A stretch of 64,000 nucleotides of DNA, from NCBI RefSeq assembly GCF_002795845.1, contig NZ_CP011797.1, positions 186,001-250,000 on the forward strand, given 5' to 3'. Source of the DNA: Reinekea forsetii (GTDB taxonomy: Bacteria > Pseudomonadota > Gammaproteobacteria > Pseudomonadales > Natronospirillaceae). The position numbers and the translations under genes are program-made. Of this stretch, positions 50,191-64,000 are shown piece after piece (the stretch's first letter is position 1; each line of letters opens with the position of its first letter). Below the pieces are notes generated by a model that saw nothing but the letters and a program-made list of their open reading frames with translations, made no database searches and was not told where the DNA came from.

Positions 50191-51141
50191 GTGCTGTCAC
50201 TGTTGTTATTTTCGCTGCAAATCACCCTGCCCATTGCGATCTTGGTCTTATTAGGCACCCTTTTTAAACGCATCGGTTGGATTGACGAACCCTTTAACCA
50301 GTCGGCATCGAAGCTGGTGTTTAATGTTGCCCTACCGTCGCTGCTATTTGTCAATATTCTCAAAGCCGAGTCGGGCAAAACCATCGATTGGACCATTATT
50401 GGCTTTGGCGTGGCGTTCACCCTAGCCGCTTTTTTTATGCTGTCACTATTGAGCCATTGGGTTACCGGGATCCGAGAGGAACGCGGAGTCTTCGTCCAGG
50501 GCGCCTTCCGCGGCAATATGGGTATTGTCGGCCTGGGTTTTTGCTTGAGTGCTTTCGGTGCAGACGGCGCCACCTTGGCGTCGGTTTATCTGGCGGTGTT
50601 ATCGCTGGTCTATAACATCCTGTCGGTGATCACCCTGAATCGTTGGGCGCCGCAATCGGGCAACGCCAATGTGGTGGTTGCGTCGCTCAAAAGTTTGGCC
50701 AGAAATCCATTGATCATTGCCATACTCGCAGCAAGTGCGTTGCGCCTATCGGGTATTGGCGTGCCCGACTTCATTCTCGTTTCGGGCGAATATTTGGCCC
50801 AGATGACCCTGCCGTTGGCGTTGCTGAGCATCGGCGCCAGCCTATCTTGGTCGGGCTTTTTAACGGGGGGCAAGGTGACGGCCTATGCCTCGGCGCTAAA
50901 GCTGATTCTGATACCCTATTCGGCCGCCGTGTTGGGCTATCTAGTTGGTTTTCGTGGCATGGAGTTGGGCGTGATGTATCTGATGATGGCCACCCCGACT
51001 GCGGCGGCCAGCTATATGATGGTCCGCGCCATGGGCGGTAACGCCAGCCTGGCTGCGAGCATTATTGCCATGACCACCGTCGCCAGCCTTTTTACGACCA
51101 GCTTTGGCCTAGTGGCGATGAAGGCGCTGCAGTGGATCTAA
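50191..51141 (+). CDS. AEC (auxin efflux carrier)-family transporter
   Basis: Inner-membrane carrier of 316 residues with about ten hydrophobic segments in two inverted repeats. LPIAILVLLGTLFKRIGWID at the start, LVFNVALPSLLF, GAFRGNMGIVGLGF and the second-half MTLPLALLSIGASLSW are typical of AEC proteins, which export organic acids or related compounds; the substrate is unknown. The start is GTG 50191 with GGGAA upstream. Its 3' end overlaps the convergent ATPase gene by 4 bases, marking the left border of the exopolysaccharide locus. Confidence 0.87.
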   Translation: MLSLLLFSLQITLPIAILVLLGTLFKRIGWIDEPFNQSASKLVFNVALPSLLFVNILKAESGKTIDWTIIGFGVAFTLAAFFMLSLLSHWVTGIREERGVFVQGAFRGNMGIVGLGFCLSAFGADGATLASVYLAVLSLVYNILSVITLNRWAPQSGNANVVVASLKSLARNPLIIAILAASALRLSGIGVPDFILVSGEYLAQMTLPLALLSIGASLSWSGFLTGGKVTAYASALKLILIPYSAAVLGYLVGFRGMELGVMYLMMATPTAAASYMMVRAMGGNASLAASIIAMTTVASLFTTSFGLVAMKALQWI

Positions 51142-52157
51142 CGATCGCCCTTTGGTTCACCCAGCGCGCGCGCGGATTTTAACATAGTGACCTCAGGCCT
51201 GACCGAATCTGAGCCGGCCTCATCGCCGATCAAGGCCGTTAGCTGCTCATCGATTGACTCCAGCGCGGCGGCGATCCGTTCCAAGGCCGACCTAGACGTC
51301 TGACCGATCGAATCGGCGGGCTTCGGTGGCGCGACCTGGGGCTGCGCCATGGCGACGCTCGACACCCCTAGCTCATTTTTGATGGCGTCGATGTCGGCCG
51401 TTATCAGGTGCGTTCGCTCTTCGGCAAAGGCACACAGCAAGAGGCCATCGCTGATTTTGTTGACCAGGCGGGGGATGCCCGCGGAATATTGGTGCACCCG
51501 CTCGATAATGTTGTGCGGAAACAACTCGACCCGCTCCATGCCGGCGATGCGCAGGCGATGCTGGATATAGCGCTCGGTATCGTCGAGCGACAGACCTTCC
51601 AAGTGAAAGAACAGTTTTACCCGCTGACTGAGTTGTGGAATGGCAGCAATATGGTCAGACAATTCCGGTTGACCGAGCAAGATCACTCGCAAAATCGGCC
51701 CCTGTGAGCTCTCCATACCAGCCAACATGCGAATGTCTTCGAGGTTTTCATAACTGAGATTTTGCGCCTCATCGATCGCCAGTAAAACGGGGATGCCCTT
51801 ATCGGCTAATTGCCGCAAGTGATCATTAAGGGCAAAGACGATATTAACCTTGGTCGCGTCAGCCAAGCTGATACCGGCCTGATGCAGAAGCGTCTGAAAC
51901 AGATCATCGCCCCGCAAGTTGGTATAGGCAATTTGGAAGAGTTGCACCTCTTCTTTTACATCGGAGATCATTTTTTTCAATAGGGTGGTCTTGCCCGAGC
52001 CAATCTCCCCGCTGATCACCACAAAGCCTTCCGGGCTCCAGATGGCCGAATCCATAAACACAAAAGCCCGGGAATGTTGCCGGGACATGTAGAGAAAATC
52101 CTCTTCTGGCGCCATGCGAAAAGGATGGCGTTCGAAACCAAAGTGCTTTAAATACAT
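51138..52157 (-). CDS. ExeA/GspA-like AAA ATPase of an XrtA/PEP-CTERM exopolysaccharide locus
   Basis: Cytoplasmic AAA ATPase of 339 residues. It starts MYLKHFGFERHPFRMAPEED, the diagnostic opening of the XrtA-associated ATPases and related ExeA/GspA proteins. Walker A GEIGSGKT is at 50-57, Walker B is VLLAIDEAQNLS, and sensor 1 is LLGQPEL, with QRVKLFFHLEGLSLDDTERYI following. The C-terminal 70 residues are polar and probably flexible. It is last of a minus-strand trio behind the deacetylase and the dehydrogenase. Its exact job in polymer export is not known. ATG 52157 follows AGGAGA; the frame extends upstream without support. Confidence 0.88.
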   Translation of the reverse strand: MYLKHFGFERHPFRMAPEEDFLYMSRQHSRAFVFMDSAIWSPEGFVVISGEIGSGKTTLLKKMISDVKEEVQLFQIAYTNLRGDDLFQTLLHQAGISLADATKVNIVFALNDHLRQLADKGIPVLLAIDEAQNLSYENLEDIRMLAGMESSQGPILRVILLGQPELSDHIAAIPQLSQRVKLFFHLEGLSLDDTERYIQHRLRIAGMERVELFPHNIIERVHQYSAGIPRLVNKISDGLLLCAFAEERTHLITADIDAIKNELGVSSVAMAQPQVAPPKPADSIGQTSRSALERIAAALESIDEQLTALIGDEAGSDSVRPEVTMLKSARALGEPKGDR

Positions 52158-52189
52158 AGCAACCGCTCTCCTTGGGTTGTGGGTTCGCC

Positions 52190-53482
52190 TTACAAACGCC
52201 AAAGCGGCACGTTAGCCGCAGCGAACGAGACACGATCCATAATCGACTTTACATCATAGACGCCCGCACCAGGCCTCAACATGGCAGCGAAATCGCGCGC
52301 GTTCAGGGCCTTATATTCGGTATGTGCGACACAGATGATTATCGCCGCCAGATCGGTTAGCTCGGATAACTCGGATAATTCAATGCCATACTCCTGGCGC
52401 GTTGTGGCTGGATCGGCATGGCCATCCTGTACCAGCGGCTCGACCCCCCAACTCTGCAGACCCCGGATTACATCGATAACCTTGGAGTTGCGAATGTCTG
52501 GGCAGTTCTCTTTAAAGGTGATGCCCAAAACCCCGACTCGGGCACCCTTGACCGGCTGGTTATTGGTGATGAGCTTCTTGACCAGCTCGCCCGCCAAATA
52601 GCCACCCATGCCGTCATTGATGCGCCGGCCGGCGAGAATGACATCGGGATGATAGCCGAGCTTCTCAGCCTTATGGGTTAGATAATAGGGGTCGACACCA
52701 ATACAGTGACCGCCGACCAGGCCGGGCCGGAAGGGTAAAAAATTCCACTTGGTGCCGGCCGCTTCCAATACTTCAAAGGTGTCGATATGCATATGATTGA
52801 AGATAATCGCCAGTTCATTCATCAATGCGATATTTAGGTCGCGTTGGGTGTTCTCAATAACCTTGGCCGCCTCGGCGACCTTAATGCTGGCGGCGCGATG
52901 GACGCCGGGTTTGACCACCGATTCATAGACCGCCGCAATAATCTCCAGCACCTCCGGGGTTTGACCCGACACGATCTTGAGAATATTGGTGAAGGTGCGT
53001 TCCTGATCACCTGGGTTAATTCGTTCTGGTGAATAGCCGACGAAGAAGTCGCGGCCACAGACCAGGCCAGACGTTTGCTCTAGGATCGGCACGCAGTCCT
53101 CTTCGGTGGTGCCCGGGTAGACGGTCGATTCGTAAACCACTATGTCGCCCGGCTTTAGATGCGGCCCAAGGGTTTCCGACGCGCGGATCAATGGGGTCAG
53201 ATCCGGTTGCTTGGAATCATTGATCGGCGTTGGGACGCCAACTATATGAAAGTCGGCCCTCGCCAAATCCGCAGGATCACTGGTATAAAAGATATCGCTC
53301 GCGGCCAACTCTGCGCTGGATACCTCCAAGCTACGATCCAGACCCCTTTGCAACTCGGCGATGCGCCGACTATTGATATCAAAGCCAATGCTCTGGCGTT
53401 GCTTACCAAAGGCCACCGCCACCGGCAAGCCAACATAACCCAAGCCGATAACGGAGATGGTGCGACTGTGCATGCTGGTCAT
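52190..53482 (-). CDS. UDP-sugar 6-dehydrogenase, TviB/WbpO-like
   Basis: NAD-dependent enzyme that oxidises a UDP-N-acetylhexosamine to the uronic acid, supplying an acidic sugar for the polymer. It has 430 residues. The Rossmann motif is VIGLGYVGLPVA (about 10-21), the thiolate-bearing segment is GGHCIGVDPYYL (near 260), and LGITFKENCPDIRNSKVID is the C-terminal UDP-binding domain signature. YESTVYPGTTEE is typical of the TviB/WbpO group that acts on UDP-GlcNAc or UDP-GalNAc rather than of UDP-glucose dehydrogenase. AAGGAACAG precedes the ATG. It overlaps the deacetylase stop by 4 bases (ATGA). Confidence 0.93.
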   Translation of the reverse strand: MTSMHSRTISVIGLGYVGLPVAVAFGKQRQSIGFDINSRRIAELQRGLDRSLEVSSAELAASDIFYTSDPADLARADFHIVGVPTPINDSKQPDLTPLIRASETLGPHLKPGDIVVYESTVYPGTTEEDCVPILEQTSGLVCGRDFFVGYSPERINPGDQERTFTNILKIVSGQTPEVLEIIAAVYESVVKPGVHRAASIKVAEAAKVIENTQRDLNIALMNELAIIFNHMHIDTFEVLEAAGTKWNFLPFRPGLVGGHCIGVDPYYLTHKAEKLGYHPDVILAGRRINDGMGGYLAGELVKKLITNNQPVKGARVGVLGITFKENCPDIRNSKVIDVIRGLQSWGVEPLVQDGHADPATTRQEYGIELSELSELTDLAAIIICVAHTEYKALNARDFAAMLRPGAGVYDVKSIMDRVSFAAANVPLWRL

Positions 53483-54429
53483 AACTGTTCCTTATAATTA
53501 AGCGGTTGAGCCTGCTTGATCAGGACGCCTGCCGTGGGACTGTAGGTCTCGGTCGGATTAAAGAACGCTAAGCTGTCGGACAGGGTGCCAAAATCGAAGT
53601 CATCAATGAGCCGGTTCAGGCGGCCTTCGCATCGTTCCAAGTTGGTGTAATGACGAAAGCGGGCGAACCAACTGGCCGTGTGAAAGCGTGGCTGATCGGG
53701 ATCGACTTCCCAGGGGTGTAGGTAGAAAACTTTCGGCACCCGGTTGCCCTGACTGGCTCGATTAAACAGAAATTTGAACAGTGCATAGGGAAACTGACGA
53801 AAATAGCCGCCCCCAGCGACCGGAATATTAAGGCCGGAAAACCTGGCCGCGGTGAGCGGGAATTCGGTTAATGCCAGGCCAGTGCGGGTTTGAATGCGGT
53901 AGGGCTGATTGGGTGTATTGGGCATGCCGTAATTATCATGGTAGATCGGAAAGATGCTGGAGTCCCAGGTAAAGCCCAATTCGGTGAGTATATCGAGGGC
54001 CCAGAGGGATTTATCGGTGATCGAGTAGCTGGCCGCCCGGTAACCCTCGATCGGCGCTTGGCTCAGATCTTCCAGTATGCTCTTGGCGCGTTCAGTTTCG
54101 GCGCGAAACAGGGCCGGCGTCTGGCCATAGATCAGTTGATGGCTGTAACCATGGGATGCAATTTCATGACCGAGGTCGGCTATCTCTTTGACCAAGTGCG
54201 GATAGCGTTCGGCGACCCAGCCGAGGATGAAAAAAGTCCCGTTTATTTTTTTGTCAGCAAAGATCTCGAGGATTTTATGAGTATTGTGAACGACACGAGA
54301 CGGTTGCTGTGGCCACTGCGCTGGGCTCACTACCTTGCTGAGCGCGGCGACATGAAAATAGTCCTCGACGTCGATCGTCATGGCGTGCAGGGTGCGCGGC
54401 ACTATCGCCGAATCCTTGGCATAAAGCAT
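53479..54429 (-). CDS. Polysaccharide deacetylase, XrtA-associated DUF3473 type
   Basis: NodB-fold carbohydrate esterase of 316 residues, probably N-deacetylating the polymer or its lipid-linked unit. Motif 1 TIDVEDYFHV supplies the catalytic and metal aspartates, motif 2 is EIASHGYSHQL (metal histidines), and motif 3 is EGYRAASYSITD. The C-terminal DUF3473-like region has GGGYFRQFPYALFK, VFYLHPWEVDPDQPR and the RFRHYTNLERCEGRL segment seen in PEP-CTERM-linked deacetylases. No signal peptide is seen, so it may act in the cytoplasm. It is first of the leftward EPS transcript, starting at the AT-rich divergent spacer. Confidence 0.91.
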   Translation of the reverse strand: MLYAKDSAIVPRTLHAMTIDVEDYFHVAALSKVVSPAQWPQQPSRVVHNTHKILEIFADKKINGTFFILGWVAERYPHLVKEIADLGHEIASHGYSHQLIYGQTPALFRAETERAKSILEDLSQAPIEGYRAASYSITDKSLWALDILTELGFTWDSSIFPIYHDNYGMPNTPNQPYRIQTRTGLALTEFPLTAARFSGLNIPVAGGGYFRQFPYALFKFLFNRASQGNRVPKVFYLHPWEVDPDQPRFHTASWFARFRHYTNLERCEGRLNRLIDDFDFGTLSDSLAFFNPTETYSPTAGVLIKQAQPLNYKEQL

Positions 54430-54488: not shown

Positions 54489-54652
54489 ATTGTAGTTCGA
54501 TAATTTTTAATTCCTGGGTTTTACGCTTCTTATACAGTGTATTGTCTTCTTGTTATGGCTTGTGGTTTGAATTATTTCAGTGCAGTATCTATTTTTATAA
54601 GCGACCCGGTTGGCTGGATGCCGTTACCTTTTTTAACTGCAAGGAAGCATGT

Positions 54653-56059
54653 GTGTCTTATATTAATATTGCTAAAAATCATCGACACCTACCCTATCTG
54701 GTCCTGGCTGTATTAGAGTTTTTTCTGCTGTTTCTTAGTCTTTATATTGTCAAAGCCATACAGATATTATTGAATGTTCTGCCTGAGTCTACCCTTTCAT
54801 CGGACCCCGTCGTCGCAATGATTTATGCCGCTTTCTTGAGTTGCGACTCACTCGCTATGGGGGTCTATTTGGCGATGATGCGCGACAGCTTTAAGGCGAT
54901 GTTTTTTCGCACCCTAGTGGCCTATTGTTTCTTAGGCGTACTGTCATTGTCGCTGTTGTCCTCTATCTGGCCATTCTTTAATTTGGTCGGTAGTAATCTG
55001 TTTTGGGTTGTTATGGTCTCAACCGGCTTAACCCTCATTGCGCGTCGGATTTTTAATCGCTTAGTCGCCTCCGATCGACTGTCATTGCGAGTGCTGGTGT
55101 TGGGCACCGATGCGACCGCGCGCCAGCTGCAGATCGAGTGCGAACAACACCGGCGCAGTTTGAATATTCGTGTGGTCGCCTATCTGGGGTCTGCGCAGGC
55201 GGCTATCGCCCCGAGTCAGTGTGCCGCATTGCCAGAAGACCTATTACGTTATTGCATCGACCAGCGCATTGTGGAAATCATCGTGGCGCAACAGGAACGA
55301 CGGGGGAGCGATGACAGCAATGCTCTGATGAATGAACTGATTCGTTGCAAGCTGCACGGCATTGCGGTGACGCATGCGCTGTCTTTTTATGAACGCGAAT
55401 TGCAGCGCGTTAAACTGGATATTCTTGAGCCTTCGTGGATTATTTTTGCCAATGGTTTTCCAGTATCGCGCCTGCGCGACCTTACCAAGAGACTCTTCGA
55501 TTTGAGTATCTGTTTGGTTTTGGCCCTAGTGCTGGTGCCCTTCATGACTATCGCGGCACTGTTGGTGTTCTTCGAAACTGGCCGGCCGATTCTCTATTCC
55601 CAAGTTCGAGTAGGCAAGGGTGCACACCGCTTTAAAATCTATAAATTGCGTTCAATGCGCCAGGACGCAGAGCAGGGCGGTAATGCGGTCTGGGCTAAGG
55701 CCAATGATGACCGGGTAACCAAGGTCGGCGCTTTCCTGCGCAATACTCGGCTCGATGAGATCCCTCAGCTGTGGAATGTGCTAAGAGGCGAGATGAGTTT
55801 TGTGGGTCCACGCCCAGAGCGGCCAGAGTTTGTTGCCCAGCTAAATGAAAAAATTCCATTCTATGCACATCGGCATACTGTCAAGCCGGGTCTTATGGGC
55901 TGGGCGCAACTGAACTACCCCTATGGCGCATCGGTGGCCGATGCTAAGGGTAAGCTCGAATACGATCTCTATTACGCCAAAAATCACAGCCTGCTAATGG
56001 ATCTATTGATCGTTATTCAGACGGTCGAGGTCATATTGCTCGGCAAAGGAGTGCGTTGA
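54653..56059 (+). CDS. Initiating sugar transferase of the XrtA exopolysaccharide system (EpsB/WbaP type)
   Basis: Transfers the first sugar phosphate from a UDP-sugar to undecaprenyl phosphate. It has 468 residues: an N-terminal helix bundle (about 12-140), a CoA-binding-like/NAD-fold domain (about 145-265, with RVLVLGTDATARQL) and the C-terminal bacterial sugar transferase domain (about 275-468) with KRLFDLSICLVL, QVRVGKGAHRFKIYKLRSM, the active-site DEIPQLWNVLRGEMSFVGPR and PGLMGWAQLNYPYGAS. GTG 54653, 7 bases after AAGGA, gives a family-like start (SYINIAKNHRHLPYLVLA). The frame runs further upstream into the AT-rich spacer, which I take as non-coding. Confidence 0.92.
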   Translation: MSYINIAKNHRHLPYLVLAVLEFFLLFLSLYIVKAIQILLNVLPESTLSSDPVVAMIYAAFLSCDSLAMGVYLAMMRDSFKAMFFRTLVAYCFLGVLSLSLLSSIWPFFNLVGSNLFWVVMVSTGLTLIARRIFNRLVASDRLSLRVLVLGTDATARQLQIECEQHRRSLNIRVVAYLGSAQAAIAPSQCAALPEDLLRYCIDQRIVEIIVAQQERRGSDDSNALMNELIRCKLHGIAVTHALSFYERELQRVKLDILEPSWIIFANGFPVSRLRDLTKRLFDLSICLVLALVLVPFMTIAALLVFFETGRPILYSQVRVGKGAHRFKIYKLRSMRQDAEQGGNAVWAKANDDRVTKVGAFLRNTRLDEIPQLWNVLRGEMSFVGPRPERPEFVAQLNEKIPFYAHRHTVKPGLMGWAQLNYPYGASVADAKGKLEYDLYYAKNHSLLMDLLIVIQTVEVILLGKGVR

Positions 56060-56061
56060 CC

Positions 56062-56703
56062 GTGAAGTCAGTTATCAAAGGGTTTTTGTTGAGGTTCTGC
56101 GCTCCGTTCGCAATGCTTTGGCTGATCGGCTGCGCCACGGCCCCGGCCATCAGTTCAGTGCCAGAGCTGACCTATAGCCAACAAGCCTATGTGATCGGTA
56201 TTGCCGATCAGTTGCGCATAGATGTCTGGCGCAATGCCGACCTGACTCGTGACGTTAGGGTCCGCCCAGATGGTTTTATTACCATGCCGTTGATGGGCGA
56301 TGTTCAGGCCCAGGGTCAAACACCAGAGGCCTTGGCCGCGATCATCAGCCAAGAACTGAAGGCGGTCATTAAAAATCCGGAAGTGGCCGTGACTGTATCC
56401 AACCCGGTCAGTGTCACCTACCAGTTTCGAGTGCGCGCCCTCGGTCAGGTCAACCAACCCATATCGGTTGCCTTTACCGCAGGTATGACCGTTGTTGACC
56501 TAGTCTTGGCCGCCGGGGGTGTCAGCCCCTTTGGCGCAGCGCAGCGAACCATTTTGTATCGCCTCACGCGCGCGGGCTATGTCGAGCATCCGGTGCACCT
56601 CAATGCCATTTTGCTCAGGGGTGAGATCGCGACCAACTACCTATTACAGCCGGCCGATATTTTAATTATTCCGGAAAAGAGTGTTTGGAAGGGGGAGTTC
56701 TAA
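56062..56703 (+). CDS. Polysaccharide export lipoprotein (Wza-like, XrtA-associated)
   Basis: Outer-membrane or periplasmic export channel component of 213 residues. The N-terminus is a lipoprotein signal ending LIGC followed by ATAPA. The Poly_export domain starts at YVIGIADQLRIDVWRNADLT and includes VRPDGFITMPLMGDVQAQG; a SLBB-like domain follows (about 125-200, GQVNQPISVAFTAGMTVVD), ending PADILIIPEKSVW. It lacks the large C-terminal membrane helix of E. coli Wza, as is usual for PEP-CTERM export proteins. GTG 56062 is preferred; TTG 56056, overlapping the previous stop, is the alternative. AAGGAG serves either. Confidence 0.91.
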   Translation: MKSVIKGFLLRFCAPFAMLWLIGCATAPAISSVPELTYSQQAYVIGIADQLRIDVWRNADLTRDVRVRPDGFITMPLMGDVQAQGQTPEALAAIISQELKAVIKNPEVAVTVSNPVSVTYQFRVRALGQVNQPISVAFTAGMTVVDLVLAAGGVSPFGAAQRTILYRLTRAGYVEHPVHLNAILLRGEIATNYLLQPADILIIPEKSVWKGEF

Positions 56704-58211
56704 TGGATCCAAGTCACCTCAGTGAACTGTTGCATGCCCTGAAGATGGAGCTGCTGCGTTACCGCAATGCGTTGGTCGGGGTTTTTATGCTGCTCTCTGC
56801 TGCCGTCCTGGTGGCCGGCCATCTGTTACCCAAGACCTATAGCTCCAGGGTAACCCTATACGCCGATGTGACCAATATTATCGGCTCCTTGCTGCAAGGC
56901 AAGGCCGAAATTACCAAGATAGACCGGGCTAAGGAAGCCCGTGAGACCATCTTTACCGATCGTATTTTACGCTCAGTGGCGCGCAAGGCCGGATTCGATT
57001 CACCCGATGCGGCTATTGCGCAATTACGTGCGCGGATGGATATTAGTGCCAGCGGTGACTATGTGATGATCCAATATGGCTCGTCGTCGCGCGACGAATC
57101 CTTTAACGTGATCGATGCAACGACGCAAACTTTTCTCGCCGAAGCGGCGCGCAAAAAACGTGAGGAGTCACAGAGTGCATTCGAATTTATCGACGCCCAG
57201 GTAAACAGTTATAAACGGCAATTGGAGCAGGCTGAAGACCGCTTAAAAGACTTCTCGGCGTTGAATATCGACATCACCGAACAAAGTGTGTCGAATCGGG
57301 TGACCCAATTTAAAAATGACATTCAGGTTCTTAAACTGAGCATAGAGGACAGCGTCTCCCGTCTGGCCAGTTTTGAAACCGAACTGCAAAACGAAGCGGA
57401 ATTTTTGCGGATTGAAATCGATCGCAACCAATCGTTCGAGGAGCGTCAACTCGAAGCCTTCGAGCAGCAGTTGGCGGATTTGCGTTTGACCTACCTCGAC
57501 AGCCATCCGGATATTATCAGCCTAAAGGACCAGGTTGACGCCTTGCGCGGTCGGGTGGCGATCATTGTGACCGAGGCGGCCGACAATAAAAGTTTCTCGC
57601 AGATTGAAAACCCATCCTATACCAGTCTAAAGGATGTCATCAATAAAGAGCGCGCGGATCTGACGGCGAATCGAAATCGCTTGTCCAGTACCGAACGCCT
57701 GTTGCAAGGTGAACTGTCGAATGCCGAGACGGTAGCGGAAAAACAGGCGACGCGGCAGGAACTGAACCGAGACTATGCGGTTACCAAGGATGTCTACGAA
57801 GATATGCTGAAACGCCGTGAGAGTGCCCGCTTGTCGATGACGCTTGATATCGAAGGCCAGGGGGTGTCCTACAAAATCCATGAGCCGGCCTCCTACCCGG
57901 TGCGCTCCGATGGTCTGCAGTTGGTGCACTTCGCCCTGCTCGGGCCATTGTTAGGGCTGATGGTGCCGCTGGGCTTTATTCTTGCGTGGTTGCTCATCGA
58001 TCCGCGCATCCGTTCGGCGTCCTTACTTAGCGCGAAGCTGCCGGCCCATTTACCCCTAATGACCTCGATACCCATCTATAACGGTACCTTAGCGAAATTT
58101 ACCAGCCAACGCGCCTTGGTCTTGCTGGGCAGTCTCTGCTTGGCCTATCTGCTGCTCTACGCACTGTTGAGTAGTGGGTCCTTTGAGCTGTCCGCATTAG
58201 GCCTTTTTTAA
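56703..58211 (+). CDS. Chain-length determinant protein (Wzz/GumC-like, XrtA-associated)
   Basis: Inner-membrane polysaccharide co-polymerase of 502 residues. The Wzz domain starts after a first membrane helix (about 25-45) with PKTYSSRVTLYADVTNIIGS; long periplasmic coiled coils follow (about 165-390). A second membrane helix lies near 415-437 with the proline-rich PASYPVRSDG just before it, and a further helix near the C-terminus (LVLLGSLCLAYLLLYALL). No kinase domain is fused; the following gene encodes the CpsD-like partner. ATG 56703 overlaps the previous stop (TAATG) and follows GGGGGAG. Confidence 0.91.
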   Translation: MDPSHLSELLHALKMELLRYRNALVGVFMLLSAAVLVAGHLLPKTYSSRVTLYADVTNIIGSLLQGKAEITKIDRAKEARETIFTDRILRSVARKAGFDSPDAAIAQLRARMDISASGDYVMIQYGSSSRDESFNVIDATTQTFLAEAARKKREESQSAFEFIDAQVNSYKRQLEQAEDRLKDFSALNIDITEQSVSNRVTQFKNDIQVLKLSIEDSVSRLASFETELQNEAEFLRIEIDRNQSFEERQLEAFEQQLADLRLTYLDSHPDIISLKDQVDALRGRVAIIVTEAADNKSFSQIENPSYTSLKDVINKERADLTANRNRLSSTERLLQGELSNAETVAEKQATRQELNRDYAVTKDVYEDMLKRRESARLSMTLDIEGQGVSYKIHEPASYPVRSDGLQLVHFALLGPLLGLMVPLGFILAWLLIDPRIRSASLLSAKLPAHLPLMTSIPIYNGTLAKFTSQRALVLLGSLCLAYLLLYALLSSGSFELSALGLF

Positions 58212-58241: not shown

Positions 58242-59066
58242 ATGGATCAAAATAAGCTTGTGCGAGCCTTTGAAAAAAATCGCGCTGAACGGATCCCCAA
58301 GCACCAGGGCACCCAGGATATCAGGCTGCGGACCCTAGCCGATGTTGGGCCGCGCCACGGCGCTGGCAAGGTGCTGCAAGTCGCGCCAGTCACTTCGCTA
58401 TCGGACATGCGCAATCCGCGGCCGATGCCGACCCATGACATGAAAGCAAAGAGCCTAGTCTATGCCGGTATGAAGCATCGCGCAGTACTGAATGCCTATC
58501 GCGAGTTGCGCATTAAATTGCTCGATCAAAGTGAGTCGCAGAATCTCAGCGTAATGATCAGTTCGGCCGACTCGACCGACAATGGTATTACTACCGCGCT
58601 AAATCTGGCGATTTCCTTTTCACTCGAGGTTCATTCCTCCGCACTCTTGATCGACTGCAACCCCTATAGGAGCGACTTGCCGCAATTGGTCACCGCGCCA
58701 CTCACGCTTGGCATCACCGACTTGCTCATGACCGCAGGCATGGGCCTGGGCGAGATAATCTATCCGAGCGGCATCGAGCGGGTGAATGTGATTCCAGTCG
58801 GCAACAGTCCGTCTGCAGCAGTGGAACTGTTTTCCTCGCATGCGATGCAGGATCTGATATATGAATTGAAGAATCGTTACCGCGACCGGGTTATCGTGAT
58901 TAATGCACCGCCGGTGTTGGCCAGCAGCGAAGCGCGGGTGCTGGCGCGCTATTGCGACCAGTGCCTGCTAACGGTGCCCTATGGCCAGGCAGATATGGCC
59001 ACTATTGAAGACGCCATTACAGCACTGGGTTCGACCAATCTGTCCGGCCTGGTTTATCGGCAATAG
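58242..59066 (+). CDS. CpsD/CapB-like tyrosine autokinase homologue with degenerate ATP site (probable pseudokinase)
   Basis: ParA/MinD-fold protein of 274 residues in the place of the XrtA-associated BY-kinase. The N-terminus (LVRAFEKNRAERIP) and YRELRIKLL near 86-94 match that family. The ATP site does not: where BY-kinases have SALPGEGKT, this reads SADSTDNGIT (108-117) with no lysine between residues 93 and 209; Walker A' reads LLIDCNP, so the second Asp is Asn140; Walker B reads VIVINAPPV, with Asn221 for Asp. No tyrosine cluster ends the protein (LVYRQ). The frame is intact, so it is probably expressed as a non-catalytic partner of the chain-length protein. Confidence 0.85.
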   Translation: MDQNKLVRAFEKNRAERIPKHQGTQDIRLRTLADVGPRHGAGKVLQVAPVTSLSDMRNPRPMPTHDMKAKSLVYAGMKHRAVLNAYRELRIKLLDQSESQNLSVMISSADSTDNGITTALNLAISFSLEVHSSALLIDCNPYRSDLPQLVTAPLTLGITDLLMTAGMGLGEIIYPSGIERVNVIPVGNSPSAAVELFSSHAMQDLIYELKNRYRDRVIVINAPPVLASSEARVLARYCDQCLLTVPYGQADMATIEDAITALGSTNLSGLVYRQ

Positions 59067-60262
59067 TGGCTGGGATGATGCCATTGCCGGCAACGGCCTT
59101 ACTAATATTGGGGTGTCTGGCCATGACGCAGAGTGCTGCTCAGGTCGACTGGTCTGGTGCGCTTAGCGGTGAAGTGATAGGCGTCGATCGACAAGTCGGT
59201 GCGTACCTAGTGCCGACGCTCGCGGTCGATTATCAGGGTCGCCAAATGGACCTGTCATGCGCAGTGACCAGCCGACTTGATGGCCAACAGGCAGAGCAAC
59301 CGGTTGAAAGCTGGCAAAGCCAAAACAGTCTCATCTGGCGCCCTGCCGGTAGTCCTCTCTCCGGTCGCCTAGTCTTCGATCATCAGCAGCTCGATCCACC
59401 GCAGATCCGCGCCGAGCGGCAAGCAAATGATGACCTAAGCGGCACACTGGGCCTATTGGTGCCTCAAACCATGAGCCTGGCCCATCAGTTGGAGCTAACC
59501 GGCCGTTATCGTAACCGACGCTCGGGTAACACCTTGCACAACCAACTCGATGAATGGAGCGCAAGCGGTGATTACCGGCTGAACTGGCAACGCGACGCTC
59601 GAACCCAGTGGCGCACCGGCTTGACTCTGCTGCTCAGCGATCGCGGCACGCGGTCAGTGCAGGGCAGTTTGGGCTGGCAATGGCAGGCAACGCGCTTTAG
59701 TCATGCGGCCAGCCTGATCGGGGGGCGCAACGAACAGGATGGCCAAGCGGTCGATAGCCTGGGTTGGAACGGCGTGCTCAGTTATCAGCGGGGCAATTTG
59801 GGATGGCGCCTGCGCGGCGAGCACAGCCAGACCGATGCCATCAGTTTGTTTCAAGCGGCCGGGCTCGATGCGCCCGTTACCCAACAGAGGCAGCTGTTAG
59901 TCGACCAACTGACCGTGAGCGTGTTTGGCGTGCAGCCGATCGACTCGGTGACCCTAACGGCCGACTTTAGCGTGGGCCGGAGCCGCGCGCTCTTTAACCT
60001 GGATCTGCTCGATCTGGATGATCAAGCGCGCCAGCACTTTCAACAGTTTAGGACTGACCTGACTTGGCAGTCGTCCAGCGCTACCTGGGTGCAGCTCGGT
60101 TGGCAGCGACGCTTGCAACAGGAGGTTAGCCGCACCCAGGTCACAGCGGAGCTCAACCGGACCCTGAACCGGCGCTGGTCACTGGACGGCCGTTTGGCCC
60201 AGAATGTGTCGGGCCAGGAGAAACCACTCGATTGGTCGGTGGCCATCAAGTACCAATTTTAA
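59066..60262 (+). CDS. Outer-membrane beta-barrel candidate of the EPS locus
   Basis: A 398-residue protein with an N-terminal hydrophobic signal (LPATALLILGCLAMTQSAAQ), then repeating amphipathic strands rich in Gln, Arg, Trp and alternating hydrophobics, ending VAIKYQF. A terminal Phe and alternating pattern are the usual outer-membrane barrel signature. Position after the kinase-like gene matches the PEP-CTERM-associated barrel proteins often found in these loci, possibly the outer-membrane part of export; sequence similarity is too weak for me to name a family. GTG 59066 overlaps the previous stop by one base; ATG 59075 or 59078 are alternatives. The signal lacks early positive charges, which is unusual. 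Confidence 0.75.
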   Translation: MAGMMPLPATALLILGCLAMTQSAAQVDWSGALSGEVIGVDRQVGAYLVPTLAVDYQGRQMDLSCAVTSRLDGQQAEQPVESWQSQNSLIWRPAGSPLSGRLVFDHQQLDPPQIRAERQANDDLSGTLGLLVPQTMSLAHQLELTGRYRNRRSGNTLHNQLDEWSASGDYRLNWQRDARTQWRTGLTLLLSDRGTRSVQGSLGWQWQATRFSHAASLIGGRNEQDGQAVDSLGWNGVLSYQRGNLGWRLRGEHSQTDAISLFQAAGLDAPVTQQRQLLVDQLTVSVFGVQPIDSVTLTADFSVGRSRALFNLDLLDLDDQARQHFQQFRTDLTWQSSSATWVQLGWQRRLQQEVSRTQVTAELNRTLNRRWSLDGRLAQNVSGQEKPLDWSVAIKYQF

Positions 60263-62622: not shown

Positions 62623-64000
62623 CTATGGAATATTTTTTATAATGGGCGGGCCGATTATTTTTGTTAGCCAGACTGGCAATTTTTGCCACAGCTTGATAAG
62701 CAATTTTAACTTGGGGTTGTCGGGGTTATGACTGCGCGAGGCTGTCCCTATCGTCGTGGGATAATACCAATAGTGTGCCACCGGCAGGGCGCCCCATTGT
62801 TTTTTGAATTTATAGGTATTGGCGTCTTGGGTCGAACGGCCAAAGTCAAAAAAACCATAACCCTCGGCGATGGCGTGGGTCAGGATTTGTCGGTACATCC
62901 ACATGTTCATATTCAAGCCATTGACCGACCTAAGCGTGGACGCCCAGGGTATTTCGAGCACCTCCTGATAGCCCAGTAAAAAGCCCACTGAGACCGCCTT
63001 GGCGTCAAGGTAGCAGACCACCAAGCTGGCCTTCAATTCTCGTGCGGCTAACAGTTGAGCAAACCAGACCTTGCTATACACTGGGGTGCCTAGGTCGCGC
63101 ATGTTGTGGGCGAATACTCGATAGAAGTCATCGAGCAATTCCGCGCCGCCGAAGCGCACAGCTGGTTTAGATGTCTTGGCCTTATTGACCTGCGCACGTA
63201 CCTTTGCACCCAGTTCGGCCTCGAGGTCGGCGTCGCGCTCCGGCAGGCGCCGAATCATGCTGACTTTTTCATCGACGCAGGGGAATGGCAGGCCTGCCAG
63301 GGTGGTGCGAATTTCGATTTGGTCCAGTGCATCCGTTGTCACCAGATTGCGCGACTGCGCGATCAGTTGCTCGGCTATATCGCGGTAGGCCGTGAGCGGC
63401 CCGCCATAATTAAAAAAGCCAACCGATACCGCCTGCCGGCCAAAGAGTCGGCTGCGCATCAGAGTGACCGGCAGGCCGCCGACGACCGTGCCCGAATCGA
63501 GCGCGAGCAAAATTTTGCAGCGATGGCCAAAGGCCGTTTGGATGGTGTTGTGAATGACCGGTAGATGATAGACACTGGCCAGGTCGGCCTGCTGCTGCAC
63601 GAAATTCTGCCAGAGCGGATCTTGGGGATCTTCTAGCCAGCGCCATGCAATGTTTTTGCCATAGTGAGCCAAGGTTCGGGTAAAGCGACTCGGCAACTGC
63701 GTTCTTGTAGCGGGTGCCGACTCTTGCAATAGACGGGTGGTTGCCAACCGGATCTGCGCGATGGCCAGCTCGGTGTCACGCACCGTGCAGGAGATGCTGT
63801 GCATCTGTAATTTGAGGGCAGTAAGTTGAACCGCGTTCGCGCTAGCAGCCTTAAATAAGCTTGCGAGGCGACCCTTATCAGCCTGCATTTTTTTTAATTT
63901 TTTTGCTAAGGCTTGGCTCTGCTGCTGTAAATCTTTCAACTCGCCATAGACCTGCTCAGCCAACGGCGTGGCCAGACTGGCGTTATAGGCCTGTGGATCC
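62623..64000 (-). CDS. FemAB/GNAT protein, XrtA-associated type, 5' end beyond window
   Basis: The frame is open to base 64000, so the N-terminus is outside; about 459 residues are visible. The first 110 visible residues (after ATPLAEQVYGELKDLQQQ) are a predicted coiled coil rich in Leu, Lys and Gln. The FemAB-like domain follows with DPLWQNFVQQQADLASVYHL, VGGLPVTLMRSRLFGRQAVS, NYGGPL, LGAKVRAQVNKAKTSKP, and the diagnostic end IAEGYGFFDFGRSTQDANTY then KFKKQWGA. Such proteins are common in PEP-CTERM loci and may add acyl or aminoacyl groups to the polymer; the reaction is unproven. The TTG at 63963 is internal. Confidence 0.88.
   Translation of the reverse strand, partial: DPQAYNASLATPLAEQVYGELKDLQQQSQALAKKLKKMQADKGRLASLFKAASANAVQLTALKLQMHSISCTVRDTELAIAQIRLATTRLLQESAPATRTQLPSRFTRTLAHYGKNIAWRWLEDPQDPLWQNFVQQQADLASVYHLPVIHNTIQTAFGHRCKILLALDSGTVVGGLPVTLMRSRLFGRQAVSVGFFNYGGPLTAYRDIAEQLIAQSRNLVTTDALDQIEIRTTLAGLPFPCVDEKVSMIRRLPERDADLEAELGAKVRAQVNKAKTSKPAVRFGGAELLDDFYRVFAHNMRDLGTPVYSKVWFAQLLAARELKASLVVCYLDAKAVSVGFLLGYQEVLEIPWASTLRSVNGLNMNMWMYRQILTHAIAEGYGFFDFGRSTQDANTYKFKKQWGALPVAHYWYYPTTIGTASRSHNPDNPKLKLLIKLWQKLPVWLTKIIGPPIIKNIP

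Follow-up and report, generated by a model that had tools for sequence, protein, structure and literature searches.

According to the accepted model, co-polymerases of the Wzc type depend on cycles of phosphorylation, and Wzc reportedly has to alternate between phosphorylation states (available text of PMC8285477). This raises the question of how an exopolysaccharide locus may work when the gene in its kinase position encodes a protein without the standard requirements of a BY-kinase. Such a gene was analysed here in a 64,000-nucleotide stretch of Reinekea forsetii (contig NZ_CP011797.1, positions 186,001 to 250,000), hereafter the window.

A kinase-like gene beside a co-polymerase

The open reading frame at 58242..59066 (plus strand) is uninterrupted over 274 aa. 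Its top NCBIfam match is TIGR03018, the model of XrtA-associated tyrosine autokinases, at 155.4 bits and thus below the cut-off of 230.65; a Pfam search gave no match at E 0.1. Lysines are found at positions 5, 12, 20, 43, 68, 70, 78, 92 and 210, with none from residue 93 to 209. The P-loop Lys is absent: the place of the lost Walker A P-loop (residues 107-116, 58560..58589, plus strand) reads SSADSTDNGIT over residues 107-117. In the A' motif, LIDCN, Asp138 is retained as the first Asp and Asn140 stands at the second (residues 138-140, DCN; 58653..58661, plus strand). By alignment, Asn221 (58902..58904, plus strand) replaces the Walker B Asp in VIVIN, and the C-terminus, LSGLVYRQ, bears no Tyr cluster. 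The segment NAYRELR (residues 84-90, 58491..58511, plus strand) is the counterpart of EX2RX2R, described as a ring contact of BY-kinases (PMC3795738, available text); Glu is changed to Asn and both Arg are kept (N84..R87..R90), so that the motif itself is not matched. The initial annotation had listed the missing P-loop Lys, the two Asp-to-Asn replacements and the lack of a Tyr cluster in an open frame with normal neighbours, and the translation together with the NCBIfam matches of the surrounding genes confirmed all of this.

In order to evaluate the fold, an AlphaFold2 model was built from a 56-row alignment (pLDDT 82.3, pTM 0.77, low confidence for residues 18-42). The Foldseek top match of this model was 3la6, the Wzc kinase domain (E 5.9e-13, 22% identity, TM-score 0.66 by query length), and the best matches were all BY-kinase domains (Wzc, CapAB, Etk, VpsO, BceF). 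The model finishes in a beta strand (E267-273), with no tail. The BY-kinase fold is thus kept in the predicted structure, as had been claimed, and by the sequence criteria tested (Walker A GK[ST], second A' Asp, Walker B Asp and Tyr cluster, all lacking) the protein is a pseudokinase. The kinase domains of Wzc, Etk and VpsO share the fold and are also sequence matches, but they carry the catalytic and Tyr-tail features that are absent here; in Wzc, moreover, partner and kinase are one protein, unlike in the window.

NCBIfam profiles of the neighbours identify an XrtA/PEP-CTERM exopolysaccharide locus. The co-polymerase or chain-length determinant (56685..58211, plus strand; PCP-2b type, 508 aa, no kinase domain; TIGR03007, 261.7 bits, cut-off 278.85) ends 30 nt before the pseudokinase and is its likely partner. 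It is preceded by an outer-membrane polysaccharide export protein (56056..56703, plus strand; TIGR03027, 168.7 bits, cut-off 180) and by the initiating sugar-phosphate transferase, a glycosyltransferase of the XrtA type (54542..56059, plus strand; TIGR03013, above cut-off). On the minus strand lie an XrtA-system polysaccharide deacetylase (53479..54429; TIGR03006), a nucleotide-sugar dehydrogenase (52190..53482; TIGR03026) and a FemAB-family XrtA-system protein (62623..63963; TIGR03019), all above cut-off, and an XrtA-system ATPase of another ATPase family (51138..52202; TIGR03015, 245.1 bits, cut-off 324.5) with an intact-looking P-loop, GEIGSGKTT. The exosortase reading frame starts at position 250176 of the contig, 176 bases beyond the window end (250000). 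Its match, at 250323-251006, is best with the XrtA model TIGR03109 (172 bits, cut-off 208); with TIGR02602, which covers exosortases in general, it reaches 125 bits (cut-off 105.55). The pseudokinase is therefore located in an exosortase A polysaccharide locus.

Homologous loci were collected by a pattern scan that took one genome per species, 84,980 species in all, and the best 80 of 280 relatives were retained; they include Reinekea, Saccharospirillum, Marinobacter, Cellvibrio, Marinimicrobium, Simiduia, Psychromonas, Dasania and MAGs. Among these 80 loci, a co-polymerase homologue lies upstream on the same strand in all 80 and an export-protein homologue precedes it in 77. The gap between co-polymerase and pseudokinase, taken to the start codon nearest the co-polymerase stop, ranges from -11 to 248 nt with a median of 1 (76/80 loci; L067, L088, L118 and L120 excluded). 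The next gene in the window (59066..60262, plus strand) is fast-evolving and probably encodes an outer-membrane barrel; it has no family match in NCBIfam or Pfam, and something similar, at 22-24% identity, was found in only 5 of the 80 loci. Inspection by eye of co-polymerase ends showed that most of those from pseudokinase loci share an IPHY/IPIY-like motif past the second membrane helix, which is absent from the 14 ends shown from canonical-kinase loci; this motif is a possible docking site.

Taken with the results below, these observations quite probably mean that the gene belongs to an old clade of BY pseudokinases in XrtA loci, maintained by selection, whose members bind the adjacent co-polymerase and support its assembly by contacts and not by tyrosine phosphorylation. 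The pseudokinase would bind the cytoplasmic end of the co-polymerase and may, as a scaffold, support through protein contacts its assembly with the polymerase and the export channel. Any cycle of assembly and disassembly would be driven by something other than autophosphorylation. The apparent need of Wzc for phosphorylation cycling speaks against this reading, as a scaffold would have to substitute for it. A non-hydrolysing partner of the Wzz-like protein, which the initial annotation had offered as one option, is the reading that best suits a kept fold, a clade-wide loss of catalysis and an adjacent co-polymerase.

That annotation had also called this a departure from the usual phosphorylation cycle, which seems right; it is not new, having already been proposed for EcpK of Myxococcus xanthus and HfsB of Caulobacter crescentus (PMC12004946, available text). 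In that text, both lack the motifs, are needed for their polysaccharide and are presented as likely co-polymerase scaffolds. They are stand-alone proteins with the BY fold, without Walker motifs or Tyr tail, and are paired with a co-polymerase devoid of kinase domain in a Wzx/Wzy-type locus. The window's gene shows the same combination of kept fold, absent Walker motifs and Tyr tail and adjacent kinase-domain-less co-polymerase, and by analogy its product may work in the same way. There are also differences: the XrtA clade still matches the XrtA-kinase model and sits in exosortase loci, whereas EcpK is missing helices alpha6-7 as well as strands beta4-5 and has a basic C-terminal helix. XrtA is nowhere named in that paper (PMC12004946). 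The kind is thus already known, and the surprise lies in its extent and in an orphan phosphatase, not in its existence in this genome.

Residues and distribution of the pseudokinase clade

The residue census compared 131 distinct sequences, out of 164 pseudokinase rows, with 52 canonical rows. A Lys at the P-loop Lys column occurs in 1/131 pseudokinases versus 52/52 canonical kinases (GK[ST]); the single case, L017, has it within a 6-residue insertion (KAKGKKSTENVL), and a GKS in L054, L063, L076 and L088 falls off this column. None of the 131 has two or more tail Tyr, while a Tyr tail is present in all 52 canonical rows. The proposed alignment with XrtA autokinases accordingly separated the two sets by P-loop and tail. 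The first A' Asp is kept in 130/131 pseudokinases (99%) and is followed by Cys139 in 95%, a mark of the clade. At the second A' position Asn is found in 97/131 (74%) and Asp in 31/131, and at the Walker B position Asp in 87/131 (66%) and Asn in 42/131 (32%); both positions are Asp in 52/52 canonical rows. Both are lost together in 15/131 rows, as in the window's gene. P-loop and tail are absent from the whole clade, but the two Asp (second A' and Walker B) from parts of it only, a pattern which suggests that these Asp disappeared at a later stage. Other residues fixed in the clade, unlike in canonical kinases, are Tyr174 (95%), Gly177 (99%), Arg180 (98%), Asp239 (98%) and Pro246 (92%); Gly177, Arg180 and Asp239 are also common to a third clade described below.

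The Glu column of EX2RX2R holds Asn or Asp in 120/131 pseudokinases versus Glu in 47/52 canonical rows. The Wzc octamer is held together in part by the Tyr tail, which lies in the active site of the adjacent subunit (PMC8285477, PMC11986026, available text). As tail and Glu are both altered, any ring formed by the pseudokinase would be held otherwise.

The conserved Asp138 and the frequent Walker B Asp, together with a Gly that 73% of pseudokinase rows retain at the last Gly position of the P-loop, could indicate that the fold binds a nucleotide or another ligand without hydrolysis and that this ligand switches the state of the co-polymerase. PDB titles show the Lys mutant Wzc K540M with MgADP, so that a protein which has lost just this Lys may still bind. 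We nevertheless consider this unlikely, because in the window's genus the Gly loop is gone along with both Asp (second A' and Walker B), and the joint loss of both Asp recurs in the 15 rows counted above. Assembly supported by protein contacts remains the preferred reading.

The relationships of these proteins were examined with two trees. A quick tree of 170 rows, with the P-loop columns removed and without L272 (truncated at a contig end), L296 or L011, gave three groups: 83 pseudokinase rows (SH-aLRT 99), 52 canonical kinases (97) and a third clade of 35 (100). This tree carried a long-branch warning. A careful tree of 86 of the 170 rows, hand-chosen and including none from a list of ten long rows, supported the three groups at 100/99, 100/96 and 100/99, the pseudokinase clade (40 sampled rows) at 100/99. 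On the quick tree the Lys changed at least four times, three of these being forced by starred branches and one of the four being the L017 insertion. The canonical set was completed from a sample of the class outside the order (369 genomes, 70 over cut-off), used solely for this purpose. Descent of the pseudokinases from an active XrtA kinase is our inference, the tree being unrooted. Canonical TIGR03018 autokinases share with them the gene slot, the locus and the best-matching NCBIfam model, but differ in exceeding the cut-off, in having P-loop and Tyr tail and in forming a separate clade; the closest model is thus named a tyrosine autokinase despite the losses.

The third clade is XrtA-kinase-like (L033, L258, L265-L268, L270, L271, L273 and L277-L303). 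Its members keep the Lys in 27/36 rows and at least two tail Tyr in 10/36, and it has its own P-loop Lys losses, of the GQGA and GAGR types.

The initial annotation had stated that this gene has become a pseudokinase, as if by a local event. This does not hold, as P-loop and tail are missing throughout a clade present in 21 family codes of the order (motifs read). Among six same-genus genomes searched, five have the gene and all five show the same P-loop and tail losses; the sixth (G002) gave neither a pseudokinase nor an exosortase match. When 57 relatives were searched with the protein, 36 gave a match, and the loss is common to the same-genus homologues and to many others across the order. 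The clade extends beyond the order, to loci of Psychromonas. It thus offers many natural kinase-dead systems, some of them in the marine genera Reinekea, Marinobacter, Saccharospirillum and Psychromonas, in which to ask what drives the cycle. No work on a pseudokinase in exosortase loci was found among the titles and abstract openings searched, and neither the XrtA pseudokinase clade nor the orphan phosphatase was met in the literature thus covered. A wider sequence survey by Cuthbertson et al. is cited in the EcpK/HfsB paper.

A census of 390 genomes of the order (exosortase at E 1e-10, clade model at E 1e-30, TIGR03018 over cut-off) returned 119 with an exosortase match, 119 with a clade-model match and 22 over the TIGR03018 cut-off. 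Motifs were read in 142 rows; L272 (genome G564), being cut short, is in no count. The pseudokinase is carried by 80 genomes, 72 of which have an exosortase, and the canonical XrtA kinase by 22, all with an exosortase. In 72 of the 119 exosortase genomes, then, the gene in the kinase slot lacks the standard BY-kinase requirements. The two never occur together in these 119 genomes (72 and 22 singly; Fisher p 3e-11, relatedness ignored), as if they filled one slot. The remaining exosortase genomes have the third clade alone (15) or none of the three groups (10). Exclusivity holds against the canonical clade only, since a third-clade gene accompanies the pseudokinase in 16 of its 80 genomes. In genome G015, two divergent pseudokinases (L025 at C32:40407 and L246 at C32:30896) were observed about 10 kb apart on opposite strands.

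Other kinases and a phosphatase in the genome

A pseudokinase could also form a hetero-oligomer with an active tyrosine kinase from another part of the genome and modulate it, a model put forward for CapB1 and CapB2 of Staphylococcus aureus. CapB1 is likewise inactive and discussed as a pseudokinase, for which such a role is proposed; it differs in having the active paralogue CapB2, and the legend of the CapB1/CapB2 alignment marks a Walker A Lys55 and a Y-cluster (PMC3795738, available text). The third-clade genes of the 16 genomes mentioned above, three of which (G024, G432 and G435; L302, L300 and L298) have the P-loop Lys and at least three tail Tyr, and the fused, Wzc-sized relatives held by some pseudokinase genomes make a partner kinase elsewhere possible there. 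The genome of the window, a single contig of 3.66 Mb that is 99.99% complete, speaks against it: searches with TIGR03018, TIGR01007 and the pseudokinase protein found no second BY-kinase. The protein query found itself alone, and the other matches of the two models were only ATPases of the ParA/MinD/Mrp/FlhG/Ffh type; these read as FlhG, ParA, Mrp, MinD and Ffh, three of them being ParA/CbiA-type by Pfam. At E 1e-25 the pseudokinase was also the single TIGR03018 match in G001, G004, G005, G006 and G020. We thus judge a modulated partner kinase to be very improbable for this locus, and control by a BY-kinase elsewhere, which the initial annotation had allowed for, finds no candidate in these searches.

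A low-molecular-weight (LMW) tyrosine phosphatase of 189 aa is encoded outside the window, at 255389-255958 of the contig (L159:6890-7459). It is the sole PF01451 match of the genome and belongs to the same locus as the pseudokinase, which it follows at a distance of 10.3 kb. Its motif looks intact and it has an N-terminal extension of about 45 aa; CxGNICRS and Asp-Pro are kept in 13/13 aligned members of its family. Matches of at least 100 bits occurred in 16 of 334 genomes. In 13 of these 16, the pseudokinase is present and the phosphatase lies within 26 kb of the exosortase on one contig; the other three are G016, which gave no exosortase match, and G649 and G685, where the two lie on different contigs; G685 has a canonical kinase. 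The phosphatase is present in the window's genome (G000) and in the five others named above, where the pseudokinase is all that TIGR03018 finds at E 1e-25. In a locus without an evident kinase to oppose, it appears to be an orphan. The presence of an intact-looking phosphatase here counts against the scaffold reading, as it suggests that some phosphorylation may still matter. Two results argue against a special bond between phosphatase and pseudokinase: three canonical-kinase genomes, G025, G466 and G688, carry weaker matches (82-92 bits, inside reading frames of 580-616 aa) at 13-25 kb from the exosortase, and no such phosphatase was seen in most of the 80 pseudokinase genomes, though not all 80 are among the 334.

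A more tentative and rather doubtful extension would be a kinase-free, phosphatase-bearing circuit. Across one order the slot would mostly be held by a pseudokinase without Tyr tail and EX2RX2R Glu, and the dedicated LMW phosphatase, kept in part of the clade, might act on another phosphorylated component or bind the pseudokinase. In such a circuit, some signal that is not BY-kinase autophosphorylation would control the cycling of the co-polymerase.

Selection on the gene and its relatives

The initial annotation had argued against simple decay, and selection on the relatives agrees with it. Omega was computed for overlapping pairs with dS 0.05-1.5, mostly Marinobacter and none including the window's gene. 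In the lowest 40 of 53 relative pairs it ranged from 0 to 0.375 with a median of about 0.07, and it was below 0.2 in 39 of the 40. These values are broadly within the range of the neighbouring genes; single comparison genes in the pair set may be in the wrong frame (as the co-polymerase of L054/L074, dN 1.391), while pseudokinase lengths were as expected. The relatives are thus under purifying selection and decay is rejected for the clade.

The window's gene itself has no close relative, so that the selection estimates speak for its clade relatives. In a seven-row pseudokinase tree it has the longest end branch (0.467), and it is the fastest of the six locus genes compared. The other five genes of the same species have end branches of 0.27-0.42, the longest in four of five cases (0.33-0.42); the exception is the co-polymerase (0.27, second longest in its seven-row tree). 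Much of the pseudokinase branch length is therefore common to the locus. A gene decaying towards loss would be in keeping with that long branch and with the highest omega, 0.375, in the pair of MAG loci L076/L088, but the open frame, the coupled position, the low omega of the other pairs, the 21 family codes and the long branches of its neighbours make this hardly credible. A sequencing error hiding intact motifs, which the initial annotation had named as a refutation, is rejected, as homologues of other species show the same losses.

The two MAG loci gave one further observation. The contig of L076, labelled Rhodopirellula (MAG MED697), bears a Marinobacter-like XrtA locus, and its pseudokinase is 90% identical to that of L088, a gammaproteobacterial MAG; the contig is probably misbinned.
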